DNA from: Sphagnum magellanicum
Taxonomy: Eukaryota > Streptophyta > Sphagnopsida > Sphagnales > Sphagnaceae
Reading direction: 5' to 3'
Length of the DNA stretch: 64,000 bases
Assembly: GCA_021904315.1 (NCBI GenBank)
Contig: CM038922.1
Location: forward strand, 9,895,347 to 9,959,346
This document shows, piece by piece, positions 4,423-55,860 of the stretch; position 1 is the first letter of the stretch; each line of letters opens with the position of its first letter. Under the pieces are notes generated by a model. That model did no database searches, was not told the DNA's origin, and was given only the letters and a program-made list of their open reading frames with translations. Made by a program: the position numbers and the translations under genes.

Positions 4423-5885
4423 ACCTCACTGGAGTTCAATCTTTGTAAACCATAATTCACTTATTGCAACAGTGACTCCAAAGTGTATTTGTAGAGAGCT
4501 CAAATTTAGTCTCAGATTGGAAGCCCAGTTCATGAACTTGATCCTATACTACAATTATGTTCAGGTTAGACAGTTCTGGTGGGGGCAGGGTATTACTCCA
4601 TGACCTTGCTTTGTGTGAGAGCTATGATTACTGTAATGCCTCTCACTGGTTCATAGACACCCCTGCATCTTCAAATGAAGACATAGCAGGTGGAAAGAGG
4701 AGTGACAGAAAAGGTTTATGATTCCACAGTCTATTTTGTGCACAGAAATTGTTGAATCTTTGCAACCCTTCCACTGTCCATCTTAGTTGGTAAACTGCTT
4801 GCATGTCAGGTTTGCTGTTCTTGCAGTGAAACCAAATGGTGGACTAGGGTTCAGGTAACTGAATTTCATGGGTTTATGTTTATGTTTGAAAGAAATCATT
4901 GAATTATATTTTACTGTGCAAAATTGATGGAAGTTGGAACCAAGAGACTTCTCTTTAAACCCCTGGGGTTTTTGGGTTTAAGTATGGTTTTTCTACCTCT
5001 TTCACTGCAGGATTTCTAGGGTTATACTTATGTGAAAAGCTGCAATTCGACTAAATGAATTGCTTGGAAAAAAGTGAATATACCTACTCATCAGTTTCGG
5101 ATCTTGTGAGATTGTGCATTGGCTGAGCATGAGTGCCAATGTCTGCCTTAATGTTGGAAGACCTTTGAACGGGGCTGATTTCCTCATGGTGTTCAACAGT
5201 TCTCAAATCACCAATGGGCAGATGGGGTATTTCATATTTCAAGTGTTTCGTATTTCATTTCTAACTTGATTATTTTCTGTTAAACCTTGCACTGAATCCA
5301 CACTTCAGAATTTGATTCTTCATGACAGAAAAACACAGTCTTCTGCAATCAAAATTTTTAGCATGTGAACTGCCAATGAGCTGTTTGTTAAGTGCATTAT
5401 CAAATCAGCAATAAACTCCTTTAAAAGCCTTACACAAACTGTTTTGCCAAAGAAACGAGCCTTCTTGGGTGGATGAGCTTGAAGACACATAAAATGCCAA
5501 ACATCCATTTGCACAATTTTTTCCATCTCCTATACACTAATACTTGCAAATTCTTCCAGTTTTTTTTCCTTCTCAGTTTTATGATTGAGCATCAGTTGTG
5601 GCTTCAAAATGTTGGACTTGCATAGCACACCAGTCATCGATATGATACCTTTTTTTTATAATATGATGTCCATTTCAAATTCATAAGGATTTATATTTTC
5701 ATTACAAGTGCATGTTTTTAATAATCACATCTAACATTAAAGAGAAATCATCTGATCATCTTTATCTGGTTCAATGTTTAGGAATGTTTAGTTGATCAAC
5801 TAATGATGCTACCAGATAGTGCAAATTAAGCTTTTGAAGTTACTTCATTGATCATCTAGGAAATGGTTGTTAGTTGCACCCACGT
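4423..5885. other. 3' UTR and intergenic sequence, no gene seen
   Basis: The stretch downstream of the F-box stop contains only short, unsupported reading frames. The first few hundred bases are probably 3' UTR. Nothing else is recognisable. Confidence 0.5.
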
Positions 5886-6167
5886 TGTTTGAAGTGTGTG
5901 ATATATGAATTCCACATGGTCACAGAGTCAGATGATTACTCAATTGGGTCTGCTAATTGAGTGCATTTCACCGGACCCTGTTTGAAGCGTGTGATATATG
6001 AATTCCATATAGTCACAGAGTCAGATGATTACTGAATTGGGTCTGCTAATTGAGTGCATTTCACCGGACCCTGTTTGAAGTGTGTGATATATGAATTCCA
6101 CGTGGTCACAGAGTCAGATGATTACTCAATTTGGGTTTGCTAATTGAGTGCATTTCACTGGACCCCG
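5886..6167. repeat. 93-bp tandem repeat, three copies
   Basis: Copies begin with TGTTTGAAG at 5886, 5979 and 6072, an exact 93-bp spacing. The third ends near 6167, where the sequence diverges after a final ATTTCACTGGACCC. Copies differ by only a few substitutions (for example ACATGG/ATATAG/ACGTGG). An open frame starting at 6131 runs out of the last copy but has no recognisable product. Confidence 0.9.
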
Positions 6168-7304
6168 TAGGTGTGAGGCGATTTCAACAGATCCTCAAAC
6201 TTATGACCTCATTCACATGCAAGTGGTCTCTTCAGCTTGTATCAAGGCCAGTAAGATCTTTCACATCCAAAAACTTCAAAGATGTTGTTGGGAACATCTG
6301 TTTGCCAGGGAACCAAGACAATTCTTCAATGAGCCAAAACAAATTTTTTTTATTGCTCAACATTGTGAAGGTTCTATCAACTGTAATGTTCTGGTGTACT
6401 ACTGCATTGATGCATTACAGTTCAGAGTTGTTCAGTTCACATTTCAGATGTACTATGAGTTTAAACATTGATGCAGAGGTAGTAGTTTCTACATATCTGA
6501 GGGGAGGTGATTCTGCCCACAGTGACCAGGATGGATCCTTGTGGCTCAACCCTTTGTTGATGCATAGTAGCCGTTCTCTGGATTTACACTGTGCAACATC
6601 TTCATTCAGGCTGTGGCGTTCCACGACGAGTGACGGCAATTTTTCCAGAGCCTCAGAGGTGACAAACAAGAGTGAAATGGAGTTGGTTAATTTATAAAGA
6701 AAACATAGCGACGGAACTTTGGCAGCTTACAACCATCGCAAAGTAAATAAGCGGCGCTCAGAAATTCCAGTTCTACAAGGTGGGTCATAGGACAGAGGTT
6801 TTATGCACAGAAAGCAAGCGACGGCAATGGCTTACAAGTTGTCCGTCGTCCAGGTAGCAAACATCAGAGCGACATCAGAGCGCACTCACTGGTTCACCTC
6901 CGAAGACATCCAACCTTTGCAGGCAGAAAGCGAAGGCAAAAAAGCACAAGAGAACAAACCAATTTTGTGATGTGGCTGAAGTGGTGAGCATCCATAAGAT
7001 GATTTAGCCAAATTTGGCTACATACTAAATATTAAAGTAGGAAAAAAAAAAACAGAATCCTTCAATATTCTTGGCTAATTACTGGATCTTATCATAGAAA
7101 TCTGGCGATTTCGATTTAATTTTTTTTTTCCCTTCAAAATATGGTGAATCTATACCACTAGTTTTGAACACATAAAACATTGAAAATCACACCACTACAA
7201 CACAACACTAAAACATATAACATGCACCATGCCAATACAAATCTGACACAATGGCCAAACAAAACCAACAAAACACAACTTAACCAAAAAAAAATCATAC
7301 ATCA
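6168..7304. other. Intergenic, ending in a copy of the dispersed AT-rich repeat
   Basis: About 6168-6980 contains no supported gene. From about 6993 to 7160 the GATTTAGCCAAATTTGGCTA vocabulary of the dispersed repeat reappears. The remainder up to the Helitron boundary is A-rich. Confidence 0.45.
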
Positions 7305-8858
7305 TCTTATATATTAATTCACTTGGTCTTCCCGTCTGTCTGTGACGTGACGTTCTGCTGCATAAGACGTTCTGCTGCAGAACCGGCGGCAGTTGGGAAA
7401 AGCAACTGCTCCCTTCTGCAATATTCTTCTGCCATGCCTTGATGGGTCTTGCTGCTTCTTCCTCCTCTGCAATTTTTCTGTAACGGGTCTTGCTGCTACT
7501 TTTCCTTCTGCAATTTTTCCTAGCTAAAGAACAATTACCAATCATGAGTTTCAATTCTGTAGAAATCACATTGGAAGGCATAGATCACAGCAGCCTCAAC
7601 ATAACAATAAAAGATGACTGGACATGAGTTATTCAGGAGGATCTCCAGAATCTCAAGGCTTGGCAAGTTGACATTGTAAATTCCCAGTGGTCTGCCTTCT
7701 TTGTTCCTGACCACTTTCCAGACTCTACAGACTCTGTTCTATCAAATTAACTTCACAACATGATTTGCAGAGTCTAATACAACTGATAGAAGAAGTCCTC
7801 CTACAGTAAGAGTGGCCATAGACTCTGAAGTGAGTCAATCCTATAACAACACCATGGAGGCCTTAATCCAAAAATTTACAACTGCAGAAGCCATCTGCTG
7901 ATCAGTCAACAGGATCTCCTATGTGTCCTATGGCACTCTAAGTCATAGAGCCCTCTGCACACTCCAGTCTGCAGAAACTTTGCCAGTATCTCCAAGTCTT
8001 TGCTGCTTGGAGCAGCAGTGAGGAGCACAAGGGTTTTCTCTCAAAAGCTCTGTGTTTGGAGATAGCAGCTGCTGAGTATTCTTCATGTGCTCAGCAGCAG
8101 TAGCAGCATCATCAAGTGGGAAGAACAACCACCACCACCACCATGAGCAGCAGCAGAAAGACCAGCAACAGGAAGAGGAAAGGTGTTGCTGCTGCTATGC
8201 ACCCTCGCAACAAGTATGCAGAAAATGCACCTGATTTCAGTCTCTTAGCGTCCAAGTACCCTGCCTTCAGGAGCTTTGTCTCCTATGGTGCTGGCGCCAA
8301 CAACAGACCCAGAATCGACTGGACTGATTTCAATGCCACCAGAGACCTCACTCGTGTGTTGCTGGACCATGATTATGGCATAAAATGGTAAGCAAGTACA
8401 CCTACCAACTTTTCCTTCCTTTCTCCAAGAGATTTGCAAGGTTGAAGACGCAGACAGATTGTTCCATCTCTTGGAGCTCTGCTGCATTTGTAGAGATTCA
8501 TCACTAGAGGAGGAGCTCAGGAGTTTTGGAATCTAATGCCACGATGATCTTCTTGGACGAGCTTCATAGATTTCTGGGCATGTGCACATGCATGAGAAGA
8601 AGAAGAAGATTCTCTTTACCTCCAATTTTGATTCTGTCTGCATTTTCATTCTTATAAAATGCAAGGTGGATACCAGATGGGCAGCTGTGTCCAACCGTCA
8701 CAAATCGAGCAAACTATATACACTGGATTGAGGATATACGTCTGTCGAAACCGTCTTGCTCGAGAGGAGCACGATCTCGGTTTAAAGAAAATAAATACGA
8801 TTTAAATAAATAAACTGGGCGGACTTCACAGTGACCAAAGGTCACAGGTTCCCACTAG
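7305..8858 (+). mobile_element. Helitron 1, carrying a FIO1/METTL16 gene fragment
   Basis: The left end is TCTTATATATTAATTCA preceded by host A. The right end is a perfect 6-bp-stem hairpin (GTGACC-AAA-GGTCAC, 8831-8845) followed 9 bases later by CTAG (8855-8858) and host T. This is the signature of a Helitron inserted between A and T: 5' TC, 3' hairpin plus CTAG, no target duplication. A second element at 43216-44157 has nearly the same ends (shared left about 45 bases; shared right AGGTTMCCACTAG), which independently supports both boundaries. No Rep/helicase is encoded, so the element is non-autonomous. The interior holds a host-gene fragment at 8143-8743. Confidence 0.85.
8143..8813 (+). 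pseudogene. FIO1: 5' fragment of FIO1/METTL16 U6 snRNA m6A methyltransferase gene
   Basis: Exon 1 (8143-8387) encodes a basic start, then MHPRNKYAENAPDFSLLASK and RIDWTDFNATRDLTRVLL. Exon 2 starts at 8666 after a GTAAGC...GCAAG intron and continues WIPDGQLCPTV, NRANYIHWIED. These are the N-terminal landmarks of plant FIO1 and animal METTL16, which methylate U6 snRNA. Homology stops at about 8743; the frame then runs through unrelated residues to TAA at 8811-8813, giving a chimeric 130-aa frame. The SAM-binding core and NPPF catalytic motif are absent, and I found no later exons downstream. The fragment lies wholly inside Helitron 1, so it is best read as a captured gene piece that kept its intron. 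The ATG at 8143 is the first in frame; an upstream GTG at 8116 is not a likely start. It cannot be an active methyltransferase. Confidence 0.85.
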
Positions 8859-24895: not shown

Positions 24896-24969
24896 TAGGC
24901 TTAATAGGACTTGAACCTACAATATCACCGTTATGAACGGTGCGTTTGAACCAATTAAATTATAAGCCC
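24896..24969 (-). tRNA. trnI(CAU): Mitochondrial-type tRNA-Ile(CAU)-like sequence, probably a nuclear mitochondrial insertion
   Basis: On the minus strand 74 bases fold as a tRNA. The acceptor is GGGCTTA/TAAGCCT with a G:U first pair. The D-arm region contains AATTGGTT, the anticodon stem is CACCG/CGGTG around loop TTCATAA (anticodon CAU), and the T-arm is TAGG-TTCAAGT-CCTA. This closely follows the plant mitochondrial trnI(CAU) as I recall it; the few apparent differences look like C-to-T changes. It lies inside the element 1 leader ORF, where element 2 has no equivalent bases. The inserted block is about 24841-25115, which suggests organellar DNA captured into the retroelement. The gene is unlikely to be expressed in the nucleus. 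Confidence 0.75.
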
Positions 24970-43215: not shown

Positions 43216-44157
43216 TCTAATATATTAATTCAGCAAGTCTATCTGTCAGTCAGTCTGTGACGGTGGGCCAGCACGGGCGGGTTGGGCACGGGAGAGGTTC
43301 AAGTTCATCCATAACAAGTTCAGGCATCCAATGGATGGATGGTGCGCCGGTGGGTGCTGAATCACTCTGGCCTAATGTGATCCAATGAAAACCGGTGTTC
43401 GGGCATCCAGTGGATGGATGGTGCGTTGGCGGGTGCTAAATCACTCTGGCCCAGTGTGATCCGATGGAAACCGTTGTTTAATAGCAATTGGAAAAATATA
43501 AAAAACTGCGAGGGGGGGGGGGGGGGGGGGTGGGGTATGTCGGTTATTTCTTGGAATGGCTCGTTCCGCTACGTAGGAAAAGAAAGTACGTTCCCATCAT
43601 ACCCAATAAAGCACGAACACATGCTTTCCCATCACTGTGGAGTGCTTCTGTGAATGAATGAATGAATGAAAAATGCCCTCCGGTTATCATATCGGGTATG
43701 CACCACTCACTTAGCGGCCGCTTTTTAAAATTTTCAAACAATCGGTGTGGCTATATAACCACGGTTCCCAAATTTTCATGAAAAAAAACGAAAGTCTAAG
43801 AACCAGTGTGCTTTTTTACCGGTTCTTTCGTAAAACCTCTAGTTCTTCTTTTGAAAGAACTGGAACCGGTGATACTTTGATTATGGGGCAAAAAAATTCA
43901 AAGAATCAGAACCAACACTGGAACTAACCACCATTAGCGGGTTATTAGAAGGGTGGTTCTTACCATTCTCACGGTTCTCAAAAAATCAATGAATTAAAAT
44001 ATGGAACCGGCGGTTCTTTATATTTTTCCAATTTCCCATAGTCATGACTTTCTGAAATGGTAGAATGTCATTGAGCTTTAGGGTTTCAGGGGTCGTCATC
44101 AGGGGTCATCGCCGCTTCAGTGCCATGTCGTGCCTTGCAGGCACAGGTTACCACTAG
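43216..44157 (+). mobile_element. Helitron 2, non-autonomous, same family as Helitron 1
   Basis: The left end TCTAATATATTAATTCA, followed by AAGTCT..CTGTCAGTC and GTCTGTGACG, parallels Helitron 1. The right end is a perfect 6-bp stem (GTGCCT-TGC-AGGCAC, 44130-44144), then AGGTTACCACTAG and host T. The insertion is between A and T. The 942-bp interior has no ORF of note, a run of 19 G (43512-43530), a GAATGAATGAATGAAT run, and several CGGTTCTTT motifs also seen near 62.7-62.9 kb. Confidence 0.85.
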
Positions 44158-45087: not shown

Positions 45088-45880
45088 TGTGGTGTGAAAA
45101 GAGGTAGTATAAAATCTGATCGAATCCTGGGTTTTGCGTCAAGCGACTCAGTGTGGCGGCACTCCATAATGGACTGCATAGAATTGCATGGCTTTTCCTT
45201 TGAGCTATGCATTGGATTGGGTATGGCGGCTTGTATTGATGAAGGGAGATGGCAAGTCGGCGAAAGGAGGATCGGATCAGGATGACAAGGAAGATTTTGG
45301 GGAGGCTTCTGGGAGAAGCAACGGAGGTCCGAGAAAGAAAGATCAGAGGATCGTTTTGGAAAAAGATTTTTTGGCTATGTAGAAGATAGAATCGAAATAG
45401 CTAGAGAAAGTATCAGGCGGTTTTTGGGGAAGAATCGATAGAAGAAAATACTCTGTAGTCAGGAGCGAGGCTCAGTTCTTTCTTTTTCCGTTGCGTTGGG
45501 TAAATCTAGTCAAGCATCTGCTGCAGAGGAACTTCAGGAGAGAGAGACGATGAGAGGTTTAAGCTAGATTGTTGAAGTTCTGTGATTTGGGAGAGAGCTT
45601 GTGCTCTCGGGTGTAATTACTTGGTGAATATTGAATGGAATTGTTCTTTGGCTGGCATCTGCGAGTGTGCTAGCAAAACAAGAGTCTGTACTTTCGAAGG
45701 TCTGCCTGTTGTTGTGTGTGTTCATGATGCGTAGTCTATAGACCTCGGGATTAGTAGATAGATCAGGTCCTTTGAGGAGTCTGGTGATGTCTGTGCAAGA
45801 TGTCAAATCAGAACATGGTTATGGTGTAACCCTAGGGGTTCGATGGTGTTGGCTGTAAGTTTGGACACCTCATTTTTGGT
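45088..45880 (+). repeat. 5' LTR of element 2
   Basis: 793 bp, paired with 52122-52914. The last bases before the primer-binding site (TTTTTGGT) are shared with the 3' LTR end, so the boundary overlaps or abuts the primer site. Most of the LTR-LTR differences I saw are transitions. Confidence 0.88.
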
Positions 45881-45888
45881 ATCAGAGC
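45877..45888 (+). promoter_or_regulatory. Primer-binding site of element 2
   Basis: TGGTATCAGAGC, matching the complement of the initiator tRNA-Met 3' end, directly at the LTR edge. Confidence 0.85.
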
Positions 45889-45953
45889 ATGGTTCCAATT
45901 GTACAACCTTGGTAGAACCTGTGTGTAGTTAGGTAGTATGATGATTAAAGATC

Positions 45954-46250
45954 ATGTCTTCATCTAGTGGTGAGGAGATCCCTGAAGTATTTGTGACTCA
46001 GGAGAATCGAGAGTTTACTCTTGTTAAAAGATTCAATTTCTGGACATTGCAGAATGGGCCACAAAGAGGAGCTGTGATTTTAAGGTTTGTGGGTTTCGGT
46101 CTTGTTAGTCTTGTAAGTCTAGACCCTGACCGAGCTCGCGTTGGGGACATTGCGGTAGAAGTATCTCATAATGGATTTTATACTAGTGCAAGGATCTGGT
46201 TGAAGGTGACCGATGGAACGAGAGGCTGGGTATGGATCTCGGAGTTATAG
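45954..46250 (+). CDS. Leader ORF-a of element 2 (98 aa, unknown function)
   Basis: It starts at the first ATG after the primer-binding site (MSSSSGEEIPE) and ends WVWISEL. It has mixed hydrophobic/charged content with no recognised domain. The diverged element 1 retains matching pieces (MSDSSEEQ, GALILRQLGFG, VGDIIVE, GARGWV), so the reading frame is an old feature of the family. The 3' end overlaps ORF-b by 38 bases in the +1 frame. It could be a separate small protein or the first half of a frameshifted leader protein. Confidence 0.6.
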   Translation: MSSSSGEEIPEVFVTQENREFTLVKRFNFWTLQNGPQRGAVILRFVGFGLVSLVSLDPDRARVGDIAVEVSHNGFYTSARIWLKVTDGTRGWVWISEL

Positions 46251-46611
46251 GACAACTTCTATTTCACCTCCTACCTTGCGTAGAATAGCACCAGGTAGAG
46301 CAGAGAGGCAGGCTAGCATTCCAAGATTAGGAGATATTTGGGTACCTAAGTCTGCTGTGTCTCCTAATCATTTTACAAGGTTCTATATTCCGGGAGTAGA
46401 AGACTTATATCAAGAAGGAGATCGGGTGCTGCGCGTACAGCATAGTGGATCTCGCTCGCGACTCATCAGCTGGCGAATCTGGAAACATCAGGATGGTGGA
46501 TGGAGATTCCAACAGGAATCTACTGATGAACAGGGATTCACTACTGTTCCGTCCAATTTCGAACCTCTGAGGCCGATCCATGAAGGAGCACAATCCGAAT
46601 TTGCTGGATGA
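46213..46611 (+). CDS. Leader ORF-b of element 2 (132 aa, unknown function)
   Basis: It starts at ATG 46213 inside the end of ORF-a (MEREAGYGSR). The core SISPPTLRR, IPRLGDIWVP, NHFTRFYIPGVEDLY is conserved in element 1 (ILPPTLRR, VPRLNDVWIP, NHFIKFFIPRMEDLF), including the start context ATGGARC. The C-terminal half is Trp/Arg-rich (ISWRIWKHQDGGWRFQQE). I recognise no domain. It precedes gag by 168 bases. Conservation across two diverged copies argues that it encodes something used by the element. Confidence 0.6.
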   Translation: MEREAGYGSRSYRTTSISPPTLRRIAPGRAERQASIPRLGDIWVPKSAVSPNHFTRFYIPGVEDLYQEGDRVLRVQHSGSRSRLISWRIWKHQDGGWRFQQESTDEQGFTTVPSNFEPLRPIHEGAQSEFAG

Positions 46612-46779
46612 CCTGGACGTTGTTTTGTTGACATTACTGTGATCAGGACTGAATTCCAGGAGTTGAGATTCTGATTAGTTTGTTTGCATCTGTGTTCTTT
46701 TCATTTTTGTTTGTTTTTGAAAAGTTTTTGGGTGGAGAGGGGTTGCTGCACTCTGGTTGTGTTGCAGAGCATCTGAGAA

Positions 46780-49700
46780 ATGACAAGTCCACAAGGATTG
46801 GATGATCTGTTTTGGGGGCGTGATCATGAGGACGTCACCGACTGGGCTGAGCGGTTGACCATGGCCGCCGAAGTCCGAGATCTGACACCAGATAAGCTAT
46901 TCAAGATAGCTAAGCTGAACTTGCGTGGTCGTGCAAAAGATTGGTTTCAACGACTTCAGCCTGTGCCCAATGACTGGACTGAACTGCAAACTTTGATGGT
47001 CCAGAAGTATGGCAGTATAGATGCTGATGACATCCGCATGAAAATGGATGTCATCAAGCAAGAAACCAGGGAGCGTGTTTAGACGTACTTTGGACGTCTG
47101 GACAAGATGTTCCGGAAAGGACAGATTTCGGATATAGAACAGAAAAAGAGATTTCTGGCCAAATTGAGGCTAGAAATTCGGAAATTGTGCATGGTAAGGG
47201 TATTCGCAGACATCGAGGAGCTGGTGGCTGCAGCGATTGAAGTGGAGAGAGTCTTAGGAGAACTGGGAGAAACACCTTTCGAACCCCTGAAGGAGGAACA
47301 AGAAGAAGGGACTGAGGACAACACCGTGGAAAAACAGGTTGCTGCTCTAAATAGCACCCTGATTAATTTTTTAAAAGAAAATGGGCAAGCTCCAGCATCT
47401 GCATCATCCTCGTCCAATGTGTTAGGAGTATGTCAGATCTGCCAAGCAGGAGATCACAAGACCACCAACTGTCCGAGGCACCATGAAGCACGGCCGAAAT
47501 GCGCCAAGTGCGGTATGCCGCATAGGACGGAGAATTGTGGGAAAAAGTGTACCTTTTGCACAGGTTTGGGGCACTCAGAGGATCGTTGCTGGAGGAAACC
47601 CAAAGAAGGAGTGAAGCATGATGGAACAGCAAACTTTGTAGAAGTTCTGCTGAGTGATGAACAAGCAACGCTGCAGCAGTTAAATAGGTTGTGTGGCAGT
47701 GAGAAATTATTTTCATACACCCGAGTTCCGAGAAGACGAATTCCTGTTGAGGTGGCACCTACGATCAGTGCTCCCTCTCCGGAAGTTGACGAAGAAGGTA
47801 GGAGGATGAATCGGGAGTCCTTAGTCAAATCAAAGATACTCTCACATTTTATAAAAGGGAAGATTGCCCTGAGTCCTATGGAAATAGTGCTGATGATCCC
47901 TGGAGAGCTTGAACATCTGGAGAATTTAGTAAAGCTTGCCCGAAGGAAGAAGGACGCTGAATTGGTGAGCGACCAAGTTTCAAGTGTATCACCTGTTCCA
48001 GCGATCAGGAGGATTTGTGTGAACAAGACCAACAGGAGCAGGACGCTCCATCTGCAGGTGGAGATAGACAGGTACATCATAGAAGGACTCGTAGACACAG
48101 GGGCATCGATGTCCGTCATAGCTGCCGCCGTGGTAAGAGAGATGGGGATGATGCACCTAGTTGTTGGATCGGAGAGCTACAAGACAGCATCAGGGGTCCT
48201 TACTCAAGCCCTAGGACGAATTAATGAAGTTGTTGTGAGTGTTGGAGGAGTGAATTGTGCCATGACCTTCATAGTGGTGGATACGGACAGCTACGATGTG
48301 TTACTTGGTCTAGATTTTTTGATGAAGATCGAAGCTGTTGTGGATGTGGAGAGAGGACTTATCTAGATACGAAGAGGACCAGGGACGAACGTGGAGGTAC
48401 TACCATTGACCGTCAACCTACTTCAAAGCGTGAATTCAGGACCTCAAGGGCAGAATGCTACTGTGAGCACTAAGGGCACCTCCATTGAGTCCTTGGGAAT
48501 CAATCTTGAGGAATTATCATCAAGTGGCTCTGAGGATGTGTTAGAAACAACATCTGACACTGACACAGAGGAAGATAATGCAGAAGAGGCTCGAACCATG
48601 AAGCAGCTCGATGTAGCGTCCGAATTCGGGGATACCGAATTTGAAGAGCTGGTCTTGAAGGAAGGACCAGCACAAATTTTGCAGCTGACATTACAGGATC
48701 GGACTGATGAATTCATGAAGGAGGAGATTTCCGATTCGGATGATTACGCTGACTGGATACAGTGGGTATCTGATGCGGAGAAGCGAAGGATGTACAGTAG
48801 GGAAGCTGAAAAGCTTGTGGAGGTACCTACTGTGTTACAAACACATCCATCGGCTAAGGATGAGGAGCCTCCCAACCAAGCAACATCATCAACAGCATGC
48901 TCGGACATGAGCACACGATGGGAACAAATCTCTCAGAGGATTCAGATTGATAGCGATCTGGGAGAAGAGAGGAAACAGGAGCTCTGGAAGATGATTGGGA
49001 GTTATCAGGATGTATTCGCTTGGAATAAGAAGGAGTTGGGTTGCTGTACCATTGGAGAACACTGCATTGACACGCAAGGATTCCCGCCTTGCAATATGAC
49101 TCCAGGCCGTCTGTCTTTCTGGGAAGAAACTGAAGTTAAGAGGCAGATCGACGAGCTGGTTGACCTGGGTAAGATGAAACCCAGCAACTCTGAGTACGCC
49201 TGCCGAGTAACGCTGCCAATCAAGAAGGATGGAAGCAGGTGATTTTGCGGAGATTATCGACCTCTCAACGCACAAACGCGTCGAGATATGTTTCCAATGC
49301 CACTGGTTGAAGATGTGATAGATCAACTGGGGAAATCAACCTAGTTTACCACTCTGGACTTACAATCAGGATTTTGGCAGATTCGAATGTCCAGTGAAGA
49401 TGTCAAGAAAACAGCCCTGATCACCAAAACAGGACTGTACGATTGGACTGTGATGCCTTTCGGGCTCAAGAATGCAACGAGCACATTCTCTCGGACAATG
49501 GCTGAGGTCTTTAAGGATCTGGGCAGCAGGTTCTTAAAGGTGTTCGTTGACGACCTTAACATACATAGCGAGAGCTGGGGAGAGCATCTGAGACACCTGG
49601 ACAAGGTTCTCTGCAGACTCAGAGAGGTGAATTTGAAGCTCAACCCGAATAAATGTTGTTTTGCCAAGAAGGCAATAACTTTTCTGGGTCACATGGTGAA

Positions 49701-52044
49701 CAAGGAAGGTATACAACCTGACCCTGGGAAAATTCAGGCAGTGTTACACTTCCCACCACCGAGGAATGTGACAAATGTGAAGTCATTTCTGGGTTTGACA
49801 GGATACTATCGGAAGTACGTTAAAGGATACTCGACTATAGCAGGGCCATTGTTTGCTTTGACCCGAAAAGATGTGGCATTTGTGTGGGACGTGAACTGTG
49901 AGTAGGCTTACCAGACACTGAAGACAACGCTGGTAAATGCGCCTATATTCACACGTCCGGATTTCAAGCGAACCTTCTGGTTGGATGTAGACTGGTCACC
50001 CAAAGGCGTGGGAGCAATACTATCACAGAAGGATGGGAAGTTTGAGAGGGTAGTGGCTTATGCCAGTAAGAGCCTGACAGAGGCTCAGAGAAAGTTCCAT
50101 CCAATGGAGGGAGAGTGTTACGCTCTAATCTGGGGTGTGATGCACTTCCGGTAGTACCTACATATGAAGCATTTCATTCTACGGACGGATCATAAGCCAC
50201 TGGAATGGCTGGCAACCGTTTCAGATGCACATGGCAGAAGAGGGAGATGGGTAGGCCTTTTACAAGACTTCAGTTTCAAGATTATGCACCGACCAGGACT
50301 CAAGCATGCCAATGCGGATGCACTAAATAGGAACCCAGTCGGATCAGCTGATGATGATGATGACTTTGGTGAAGGGATTCAAGATACCACAGTCGATGCA
50401 TCAGGGGAAGAGAGGGAGTTGTTGTATGTTCGAAAGGGGGAAAAGACAGAATGGATAGGAGTTGCGAGGAAAGAGGGGAAGTTCATCCAGCATGAAGCAT
50501 GCTGTTTCGGCATCAACCACAGGATTGGTGCAAACCACCATCACTTGTACATGCTCGACGTAGCTACCGAGCAGGAACCGCCTGAGGAATCGGCCCCTAC
50601 CGAAGGATCAATCGCCACACAGGATGTACAACAGAAAGAACTGTCAGTGGCAATCAAGAGGAAGAGACCTCAGTATTTGGACAAGCAGCAGCAGTTGGAA
50701 TTGGTTCTTGTTGCTCAGGAACTGTTTGAACTTGGGGACCCTGATTTGAGCCCCACAGGTTCGGATGATGAGGACGAGTGTGCGGTAAGGGTAGGATGTA
50801 TGGACATATGGCAGGATATGGATTGTTTGACACTCTTGAAGGAGGGTGTGTTGGCCGATACTGGGAATCTAGAGGAGAACAGGAGGATCAGAAGAAGAGT
50901 GAGTAATTACTGCTAGAAGGAGCAGAAGCTCTTTTTCAAGAATCTAGTTGTACCCAGACCTGAAGAGAGGCTGCCTCTGGTGAGACAGATGCATGAAGAT
51001 ATAGGGCATTTCGGGGAACACCGGACATTGGCAGAGATCCGCCGAAGATACTTCTGGCACTCTCGTACTGCAGATGTCAGGGCTGTGGTTAGGGAATGCC
51101 AACAATGCCAATTAGCGAAGAGCTCGGGCAGCGTGCGATCAGGAGACGAACACTTGAAAAGCATCTCGGTGCATGATTTATTCTACAGAATCGCACTAGA
51201 TATGGCTGGACCTTTGCCTGAAACTAAGTCGGGCAACAAATACATCCTTGTGGCCATTGACCACTATTCGAAGTGGTGTGAAGCTAAGGTTGTGGCTGAT
51301 CATGGGGCAAAAACAGCAGCCAGATTCTTAGAAGATGAAATTATTTGTAGATATGGAGTTCCCAGATTTGTACTTACTGACAATGGGGGTGAATGGGCTG
51401 CAGAATTTGACACTATGTGCGAGGACTATGCAATTCAGCACCAACGCACGGCCCCGCATTGGCCTTAATGCAATGGGATGGCTGAGCGCATTATCCAAAC
51501 CATCAAACGTGGCATCACTGTGCTGGCTGCAAATCCTGCCAACGTGAATTGTTGGGATGAGCAGTTAGCCAAGGTTCTATTTGGGTACCGATGTGGTATC
51601 CAATCTAGCACGAAATTCTCCCCATTCATGATCCTCACTGGTCGGACGCCACGATTGAGAGCTGACAACTTTCTGCAGACACTAACTGCTGAAACGGATG
51701 AAAGTGAGAATGTGGAAGTTCTTGCGACACAATTTTTCCAGAAAGTAGAACTCATTGCAAGTCTTCATGATGATGTTCTGGTCAATGTGGAACAGGCACA
51801 GAGGAGACAAAAGAAGAACTATGCTGCCAGGAATGGTAAGCACTTGTTCGAGGGCTTGATTGCAGGATCAACGATGGTAAAGATGAAGAAGCCAGGAAAG
51901 AGGCGGGCCCTGATTGCGAGCTGGGAGGGTCCCTACAGGTTCATTGGGCACCCTGATGGAAAGGGAAATCTGGATTTTGAAGAAGGTTGTAGGATGTGTA
52001 TTGTTCAAGATACGGATGGTAACCAGTGGGAGAGGTCTCGTTGA
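46780..52044 (+). pseudogene. gag-pro-pol of element 2, one frame with eight nonsense codons
   Basis: A single frame of 1,755 codons runs from MTSPQGLDDLFWGRD to NQWERSR without frameshifts. Gag ends in three zinc knuckles (CQICQAGDHKTTNC; CAKCGMPHRTENC, one residue short; CTFCTGLGHSEDRC). Protease has DTGAS (near residue 439) and VLLGLDFL. RT has MPFGLKNATSTF and FVDDL (near 924); RNase H has RTDHKPLEWL. Integrase has an HHCC finger (HEDIGHFGEH...CQQCQ) and the D, D, E residues in ALDMAGPLP, LTDNGGEW and GMAERI. Stops are TAG 47080, TAG 48364, TGA 49240, TAG 49342, TAG 49903, TAG 50152, TAG 50914 and TAA 51466. Most sit where a Gln or Arg codon is expected. As it stands it cannot make full-length Pol. 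Confidence 0.92.
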
Positions 52045-52104
52045 GACCTACAAATCTATTATGCTGCACCTGACTAATTAAGCTGAGGGACTCAGCTGTT
52101 TAAC

Positions 52105-52114
52105 AAGGGAGGGG
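52105..52114 (+). promoter_or_regulatory. Polypurine tract of element 2
   Basis: AAGGGAGGGG, followed by TCACATA, lies just before the 3' LTR, the expected position of the plus-strand primer. Confidence 0.7.
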
Positions 52115-52121
52115 TCACATA

Positions 52122-52914
52122 TGTGGTGTGAAAAGAGGTAGTATAAAATCTGATCGAATCCTAGGGTTTGCGTCAAGCGACTTAGTGTGGCGGCGCTCCA
52201 TAATGGACTGCATAGAATTGCATGGCTTTTCCTTTGAGCTATGCATTGGATTGGGTATGGCGGCTTGTATTGATGAAGGGAGATGGCAAGTCGGCGAAAG
52301 GAGGATCGGATCAGGATGACAAGGAAGATTTTGGGGAGGCTTCTGGGAGAAGCAACGGAGGTCCGAGAAAGAAAGATCAGAGGACCGTTTTGGAAAAAGA
52401 TTTTTTGGCTGTGTAGAAGATAGAATCGAGATAGCTAGAGAAAGTATCAGGCGGTTTTTGGGGAAGAATCGATAGAAGAAAATACTCTGTAGTCAGGAGC
52501 GAGGCTCAGTTCTTTCTTTTTCCGCTGCGTTGGGTAAATCTAGTCAAGCATCTGCTGCAAAGGAACTTCAGGAGAGAGAGACGATGAGAGGTTTAAGCTA
52601 GATTGTTGAAGTTCTGTGATTTGGGAGAGAGCTTGTGCTCTCGGGTGTAATTACTTGGTGAATATTGAATGGAATTGTTCTTTGGCTGGCATCTGCGAGT
52701 GTGCTAGCAAAACAAGAGTCTGTACTTCCGAAGGTCTGCCTGTTGTTGTGTGTGTTCATGATGCGTAGTCTATAGACCTCGGGATTAGTAGATAGATCAG
52801 GTCCTTTGAGGAGTCTGGTGATGTCTGTGCAAGATGTCAAATCAGAACATGGTTATGGTGTAACCCCAGGGGTTCGATGGTGTTGGCTGTAAGTTTGGAC
52901 ACCTCCTTTTTGGT
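52122..52914 (+). repeat. 3' LTR of element 2
   Basis: Partner of 45088-45880, same length. After TTTTTGGT the sequence diverges from the internal region into host DNA (CACAGCATGTTACAAGG). Confidence 0.88.
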
Positions 52915-55860
52915 CACAGCATGTTACAAGGAATCTAATAATAATTTATAATTTGAACAATAACATTATGAATATTTTCCACCATGCCTTCAACCAACAT
53001 TGACATTAAAGCACACTCCATAAGAAGTCCCTTCATAGCATAAAACATCTCTTTTTCATCCACCAAAGCTTCCACCATTTTATTAAAAATAGGATGGAAA
53101 CAAAATTCCATTTTATCCAACCCACTCACACTAAGTACCATTTCTAGAAGTGAAAAATGGTACATCACAAATAAGGGATTCGCATGAAATGTAGCTAATC
53201 TTTAGTTTACATCATTAAAATTATGTTTATTTCTAAAGTTTCATGAATGTTTAATACATTTATATACCAGAATGTTTATAACACATCAATGTAAAATGTT
53301 GATAAATTTGAAAGTAATCCAATAAGTATAAAATATTTAAAACGCTAGTTTTGAGGCATTATAACCAATGTTTAATTTACCATTTTAGCACTAGTTAAAA
53401 ATGATTTAAGTAGTATTTGGCTAACCTTGCATTGTCATATTAGCTTATCGCTATAAACTCAAGATTCCATGTGAAGACTTTCAAGGTGCACTTCAAGAGC
53501 ATTAATATGTGGAATGTACCTAAAAGCAACATACAACCTCTTAATAATTATTTAGAACCCCATGGTGAACATGGAAATTTACAACTAAAAGACATAAAAA
53601 ATGTACAAGAAAGAAAACAAGCAAAAGAAAAGAAACATATTTGGTATCATAATTTATAAACCTCCAAGTTTTTTGTTATGAAAGGTTCTTACCAACTTCA
53701 TCATTTTCTTGCCCATTCAATTAAATGATAAATTTTGTAGAATCTTGTAAAAAATCTCAATTGACTTTGTTATTTGAAAATCTTGTAATGATGGAGTCCA
53801 AACCAAAGGAAGCTTTTGAATACACTAGTTGATAACAAAACCCACTTAACAAAAAATCACATACATCAAGTGCAAAAAGTGTGAAGGTTAGAATTATGAT
53901 GACACTTGGGTGTGAATATCCATCTAGGAGCTAAAAACCATGTTAGATAGTGATGAAAATATTGAACTTTTTTACATATGTTTTTTTTTGACATTTTAAA
54001 ATTATGTTAATAATTCCAAGTAGTGTTAAATGAATAATATGAATGTGGAGGAATTCAAATTTAAAATTCATTAAATTAAATTTTGTGTTTTGGTTTTAGT
54101 ATAAGACATTTGAACTTGAACATGTGTTGTCTTAGATTGTAATAACATAATTTTGATGGCAAAAAATTTAGATGATAATAACCTATTACCTACATTAAAA
54201 AAGATTCATAATTTAAAAAATATGGAATTTGAAATTTTTAGAAATTCAAAGTATTTTTCAAAATTTCAAGAATCCTTTACCACATGTAAATGGGGTGTAA
54301 TGTACATGACATATAAAAAAAGTTGTATTTTATGATACAAGAAACAAAAACCTAAAGTAGTTAAGATATTTTGGTATGATTCAAAATTATGATAAATTTT
54401 GAAAATGAAATGCAAAATTTACACATTTTTAAAAATCATATTTATTCAAAAATGATTAACAAAAAACATGTGATCTATTGGGGTAGCTATATGTATTTTT
54501 AATAACAAGTTGCAAAATATTTCATTCAAAAATTCTTTCATATGAAAAAGTGAAAAAAAACTAAAAATCACTCACATTCTTTTTGTAAACAATCCTATTG
54601 GCTCCTTTGTGTGTACTTGAAACCACTTGGAATTTGCCATATGCCCCATCTGAAGCTTTGCATCCATGGTTGTCCTTGACTTCCTTTTTTCTCTTGGAGT
54701 TATTGTCTTTTCTTTCACCCTCAAAACTACCCACACAACTGGTAATGTCTTCCCACTTGAAGGAAAAGTATATACGATGATAGTCAACCATAGTTTGACC
54801 ATGATCACAAGTTGTAACAAAGTGGTTAATTTCAATTGTGTTGCAAGTGGTGTAGCTTTAGCATTGAGTGGGCAACTATTTTGTAATTGGTGTACGGTGT
54901 TGTTGCGTACAATCATGCCATGTGTACGGTTAGGTAAGGGTCCATAACATTTGGAATTTGTAACTTGTTTGCAACTAAAAGTCAACTAAATTAGCTAATT
55001 TTACAACTAAGTTACAATTAAATATGCCACTATGGTTTCACTACATAACTACTACTTATCCACTATTTTGGAATTAGAATGTTCAACTCATCTATGTGGC
55101 AACTCATACTATTAAAAGATTTACAAATTGTGTAATTCATTGAAAGTGTAAATGCAAGCCTTTAGTTGGATTGGAATGATGTATTAAAGTGTTTATGAGT
55201 ATGTACATATGATATCTTTGTCAATACACTTCAAACTTTTTAAAACTAGATTATTAAATGTTTCATTAATATGAGTTGATTCTTTTATTGATTTAATTAC
55301 TTAAAATAATTCATTTTCATAATTATCTAAATAACTAAAATTTAAGTACTGTAATAAATATTATAGTCCTATTTTTTGTGATTGATGTTCAATTGTTGTG
55401 TTAATAATATTTCACTACACTGGAATTCACAATATTATGTTGGTATACATAAATATCAAACCATGAATTTCATGAAAGGTGAAAGTTTATTTTTGAATTG
55501 AAATTAAAAGCAATGTATATATTTTATTAAACATTCAATAAGGGTGTACATATGAATATGTCTTTATATACCTCGATGTGTTTTACTCAAATTCATGTTT
55601 ATTATTTAATATTTCATAATGAATTATTTGTTACTAATTTTCAAATTAACAATTAATATGTATTATATTTATTTACCATGAACTAATAGATTGCTATAAA
55701 TAATAAATTATTCATATGAATTCATTAATCAAATTTGATTAATTAGCATTTAAGTAATTCAAATAATAAATAAATAAATATCTAATAGCAAATTATTTAA
55801 ACTAACTAATTAATTAAATTAATTTTAGATAAAATTTTTTGTTAATGTAGGTGAGTAATT
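52915..55860. other. AT-rich gene desert, first part
   Basis: No convincing gene. Two overlapping minus-strand frames at about 54561-54985 are open for up to 137 codons but resemble nothing I know. The composition is strongly AT. Confidence 0.5.

Follow-up and report, generated by a model that had tools for sequence, protein, structure and literature searches.

The segment at positions 7305-8858 is confirmed as a 1,554-bp non-autonomous Helitron, here called H1, that carries the 5' part of a FIO1/METTL16 gene. H1 is a chimera of three parts, the 5' backbone of one Helitron subfamily, the FIO1 piece, and the tail of another subfamily. We put the probability of this identity and anatomy in the Sphagnum genome, with H1 belonging to a high-copy Helitron family, at about 0.9. 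Coordinates without a prefix refer to the window, which is the whole stretch of 64,000 nucleotides that was analysed (C16:9895347-9959346 in the 439-Mb assembly). The features on which the following account is based are these:

7305-8858, + strand: H1, the whole non-autonomous Helitron, between A7304 and T8859, with TC after the A and a hairpin and CTAG before the T
7305-7321, + strand: 5' terminal motif TCTTATATATTAATTCA, used in a genome-wide motif search
7305-8030, + strand: 5' backbone of a subfamily with 11 or more copies, H1 included
8031-8735, + strand: captured FIO1/METTL16 piece, aligned without gaps to positions 4430-5134 of the parent locus L003 (C15:2264930-2265634)
8143-8387, + strand: FIO1 exon 1 with its ATG, from the reading frame and the parent alignment
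8388-8665, + strand: FIO1 intron 1, complete, GT...AG, 278 bp
8666-8735, + strand: first 70 bp of FIO1 exon 2, with the breakpoint after GAGGAT
8736-8737, + strand: filler of 1-2 nt matching neither FIO1 nor most tail copies
8738-8858, + strand: 3' tail, belonging to a different Helitron subfamily and holding the terminal hairpin and CTAG
8831-8845, + strand: 3' hairpin GTGACC-AAA-GGTCAC, stem 6 bp and loop 3
43216-44157, + strand: H2, a second family member of 942 bp with the stem GTGCCT-TGC-AGGCAC, located by a stem plus CTRRT search and by the family ends

The original prediction had assigned complete Helitron ends to H1, and both are present. A7304 is followed directly by the 5' motif, and the 3' end consists of the hairpin, a spacer of 9 nt, and CTAG8858 before a T. 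The hairpin folds modestly above chance (z -2.01; equalled or bettered by 8 of 200 shuffles). Target-site duplication is absent, as the flanks (...CATACATCA / TTTTAATAAT...) contain no direct repeat recognisable by eye, and no terminal inverted repeats joining the ends of H1 were found in the repeat comparison of the window. A genome search with the joined flanks of H1 matched right-flank repeats only, at 76% and with homology about 18 bp past the junction, and gave no clean empty site. Evidence that the terminal motifs coincide with insertion breakpoints is indirect and comes from the base preceding them: the 5' motif is found after A at 142 + 138 = 280 places in the genome (reversed control 0 + 1) and after another base at 1 + 6 = 7, so that A|TC occurs in 280/287. 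The 3' motif is found at 19 + 22 = 41 places, its control at none. For eight of 15 3' motifs compared, a listed 5' motif of that strand lies 424-1,155 bp upstream, and for seven none does; these 15 of the 41 are the places up to the last of the first 100 (of 280) 5' places, and the expected rate in this comparison is a rough one that assumes a length of 165 Mb.

Sites with a stem and CTRRT number three in the window, against a mean of 0.53 in random sequences, and H1 and H2 each end at one of them. The H2 stem differs from that of H1 in two pairs, each altered on both sides, and its hairpin is modestly better than shuffled sequences (z -1.62). No similarity was found between the interiors of H1 and H2. 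A stretch inside H2 is duplicated (43318-43399 and 43397-43478, 87%). Common termini with differing interiors characterise H1, H2, L034, L035, L037, L042 and L044, and H1 matches these other loci at the ends only. Among 12 sampled loci, 11 have a usable 5' end and five are complete elements of 327-2,755 bp; no 3' end was obtained by the stem rule for L036, L038-L041 and L045, and the sequence retrieved for L043 extends to the wrong side of the 5' end. Other family members carry different paired stems, with the limit that the stems of L034-L044 were selected for pairing, so their pairing is not independent evidence. Alignment A3, comprising 11 3' hairpins, was left out of the pair counts, as its stems stand in different registers and several were stem-selected. 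The ends of H1 were not found in viral and prokaryote contigs.

Helitron Rep domains (PF14214) occur in this genome, with at least 150 scored matches among 577 candidates. One locus, L046, of about 9.4 kb, combines PF14214 (E=5e-55) and a PIF1-type helicase (PF05970, E=5.6e-58) in separate frames between ends similar to those of H1, indicating that a related autonomous type exists or existed. It is the sole Rep match found by eye within 10 kb downstream of the first 100 of the 280 5' motifs. Its 3' end is 88% identical to that of H1 over 51 bp, with one stem mismatch and CTAT instead of CTAG, and the element looks decayed. Another, shortened family 5' end seems to begin after the 3' end of L046 (9500-9560 of that locus), in head-to-tail order.

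The 5' backbone of H1 is shared with a defined subfamily. Positions 7669-8030 have ten other copies in the genome, nine at 95-97% and one at 80%. Six of the ten were fetched; they are 92-98% identical to H1, with alignments beginning only at 7653 in L047 and only at 7392 in L051, and all diverge from it exactly at 8031. Beyond this position five of the fetched siblings share about 1.2 kb of backbone that is absent from H1, and L047 shares the first 87 bp of it. These six siblings lack the FIO1 piece, which together with the genome-wide terminal motifs bears out the proposed Helitron identity. The 3' ends are known for four of the six (L047, L048, L049 and L051; not L050 and L052). L048, L049 and L051 finish about 2.6 kb from their start with another hairpin, GGTGCA-TTA-TGCACC, which was picked among 1-3 CACTAG sites in each as the hairpin common to all three; L047 has a 3' end of the type of H1, so the subfamily is not uniform. 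At the left junction a single G can be assigned to either side, and at most 1 bp is therefore shared. An open frame beginning MSFNSVEIT... lies at 7544-7747 in the 5' backbone and is interrupted by a stop in H1. It was considered as a second recognisable captured gene and rejected, since it belongs to the subfamily backbone; no Pfam family was found for it, and its relatives P0032 and P0033 had no match even at E=10.

The 3' tail belongs to a different subfamily. For 8736-8858, 39 other matches of 74-96% identity were scored (40 scored of 125 candidates); 18 of the 39 start at 8738, two at 8737 and the rest later. Four fetched tail copies run upstream into their own backbone, of which they mutually share about 300 bp or more and which was not found in H1. 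The right junction thus contains 1-2 bases belonging to neither side and no shared sequence. The 5' and 3' types of H1 are also joined in two elements without FIO1, L034 and L047. L034 (2,755 bp) comprises the first 364 bp (7305-7668) and the last 114 bp (8745-8858) of H1 around another interior.

The gene piece between these two parts has an identifiable parent. The spliced frame of 130 aa matches the Pfam family Methyltransf_10 (PF05971, E=2.5e-23) over profile positions 4-94 of 299, and also METTL16 structures (PDB 6b91 and others). When 8143-8743 was searched in the genome, as had been suggested for finding the full-length parent, two DNA matches were obtained, the window itself and C15:2265042-2265634; the C15 locus contains every part of a 490-aa Sphagnum FIO1 protein, in order, at 84-98%. 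Positions 8031-8735 align with this parent over 705 bp at 98.6% identity (695/705). The captured block runs from 112 bp upstream of the ATG through exon 1 and the entire first intron and takes in 70 bp of exon 2. Enclosure of exon 1, intron 1 and part of exon 2, as originally described, agrees with this alignment; the gene piece was correctly recognised as the 5' part of FIO1, and its extent is corrected to 8031-8735, beginning upstream of the ATG. The frame of 130 codons holds if the intron is spliced, while the unspliced frame stops after 82 codons.

Retention of the intron indicates copying at the DNA level rather than reverse transcription of a spliced message, and a parent gene with full exons on another contig supports this. 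Helitron captures in maize also keep introns. The exons that would have placed the remainder of the gene beside H1 were sought across the window. There, matches to a pair of Sphagnum FIO1 proteins (one of 490 aa) are confined to 8143-8388 and 8667-8756 (E<=0.01), and with 31 mostly partial relatives no match outside these places was better than E=0.01. Protein P0028, from another public source, reads out of this intron into exon 2 and then into the FIO1 continuation that is missing from H1. With the FIO1 piece and the exon-2 stretch of a relative (X-padded) as query, the best two matches are Sphagnum jensenii proteins at 97% and 98%, and the remaining 118 of the best 120 (of 388) matches have at most 75% identity, which points to a Sphagnum moss as the host and not to a grass. 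Besides the parent, the genome DNA search found no second FIO1-bearing copy.

Helitrons are known to capture gene pieces in both plants and animals (PMC2575219, PMC3288121, PMC4778049 and PMC13317346). The gene-capturing Helitrons of maize, as presented in PMC2575219 and PMC3288121, resemble H1 in having TC/CTRR ends and a 3' palindrome, in inserting between A and T, and in enclosing gene pieces, with contents that vary among related elements. H1 differs from the elements in those accounts in its moss host, its one recognisable gene piece, and the joining of two subfamilies around that piece. The main texts of the same two papers contain no word beginning 'intron'. HelibatN3 of Myotis, which carries the 5' end of NUBPL, shares with H1 a captured start codon and splice donor; as described in PMC4778049, it has a promoter and is amplified, whereas H1, of which one copy was found, has only 112 bp upstream of the ATG. 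Hel1 of Spodoptera frugiperda is similar in its acquired internal block, shared backbone and discovered source locus, according to PMC6544945. None of the seven papers found to mention both Helitrons and Sphagnum deals with Sphagnum Helitrons, as judged by title and the start of the abstract; FIO1 was absent from 20 of the 59 papers matching combinations of Helitron, gene capture and FIO1, and the 5' end of H1 as a sequence string gave none. Gene-piece capture is an ordinary habit of Helitrons, and the present case is unusually clear. It is traceable, with the donor gene, an acceptor backbone free of the piece, and the foreign 3' tail in one genome, so that both junctions can be read at nearly single-base resolution. 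Examples of this sort are useful for choosing among models of gene capture by Helitrons, with read-through on one side and repair or template switching on the other.

Known models of capture include end bypass (PMC4778049) and filler DNA in break repair (PMC6544945). We lean towards the view that the FIO1 piece was copied in during repair of a break, or through a template switch in the course of copying the element. The backbone past 8031 would have been lost at that point or before, and the Rep/helicase of related autonomous elements would have moved H1. This explanation is favoured by the 10 kb around the parent, which have no likeness to H1 outside the captured block, and by the position of the piece between parts of two subfamilies. 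A strict filler-DNA form predicts short homologies in the account of PMC6544945, and the junctions of H1, where at most 1 bp is shared on the left and nothing at the right, argue against it; the Hel1 filler-DNA cases described in that source have end junctions of 2-13 bp, in contrast to at most 1 bp on one side of H1 and a 1-2 bp filler on the other. The finding of only one FIO1-bearing copy means that there is no evidence of movement of H1 since the capture, which counts against the favoured explanation.

As a special case of the repair route, a resident Helitron may have broken in place, been repaired with FIO1 filler and been immobile since. We regard this as somewhat less likely than not. 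H1 is the sole FIO1-bearing copy found besides the parent, and its junctions resemble end joining; nothing speaks directly against a patch of this kind, but a recent transposition whose donor copy has not survived would likewise leave one copy. Read-through is improbable. A Helitron in or near FIO1 would have passed its own 3' end and stopped at a later terminator, a process demonstrated experimentally for Helraiser (PMC4778049) and in keeping with the location of the FIO1 piece shortly before the 3' terminus of H1. The 10 kb around the parent, however, match H1 and its near flanks only in the captured block (E<=0.001; H1-like sequence was sought, and not other Helitron types). Moreover, the piece begins directly at a truncated backbone, and what comes after it is another subfamily's tail instead of the sequence that lies downstream in FIO1 itself. 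Read-through alone therefore does not fit, in contrast to break repair or template switching.

The FIO1 piece in H1 is most probably without function. FIO1/METTL16 is a U6 snRNA m6A methyltransferase with the PF05971 domain, of which H1 shares the N-terminal ~90 residues and lacks the rest, so that a product of H1 would presumably not be an active enzyme. At most, a short non-catalytic transcript or small RNAs may arise from the piece. The chimeric protein or decoy transcript envisaged in the original prediction is unlikely, as merely the short upstream stretch was captured and the profile is covered only in part. Among public relatives, no match spans over 79% of the chimeric query, and the chimeric tail is missing from the 14 matches (of 31) that were inspected. 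It is very doubtful, judging from the sequence, that the captured ATG, splice sites and 130-codon frame, or small RNAs, affect FIO1 activity. The frame and splice sites are open, and the 10 differences from the parent comprise one before the ATG, two in 315 exon bases and seven in 278 intron bases. The contrast between exon and intron was set aside as a sign of selection, as it is not significant (p=0.09) and could reflect constraint on the parent; the captured part of the domain also stands against a functional use. Equally doubtful is a single event in which copying would have left one Helitron subfamily for FIO1 and then moved to a second subfamily, building new moss Helitron types, with H1 transcripts or small RNAs acting on the parent FIO1. 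That FIO1 was duplicated segmentally here or misassembled, and that the Helitron-like ends are fortuitous, is highly improbable: such ends are short motifs, but both are high-copy here with clean controls, and backbone and tail are found elsewhere without FIO1.

Other features are present in the window. Two direct repeats of 0.8 kb, 98% identical, lie around a protease frame (45088-45891 and 52122-52923), with an RNase H match between them just below the Pfam cut-off, and the region 45088-52923 is likely a young LTR retrotransposon. An open frame with an F-box domain is found at 1657-2406, and a tRNA gene (Rfam) at 24896-24969 on the - strand. Finally, tandem direct repeats of about 93 bp each, with 93-95% identity, are located at 5886-6168.
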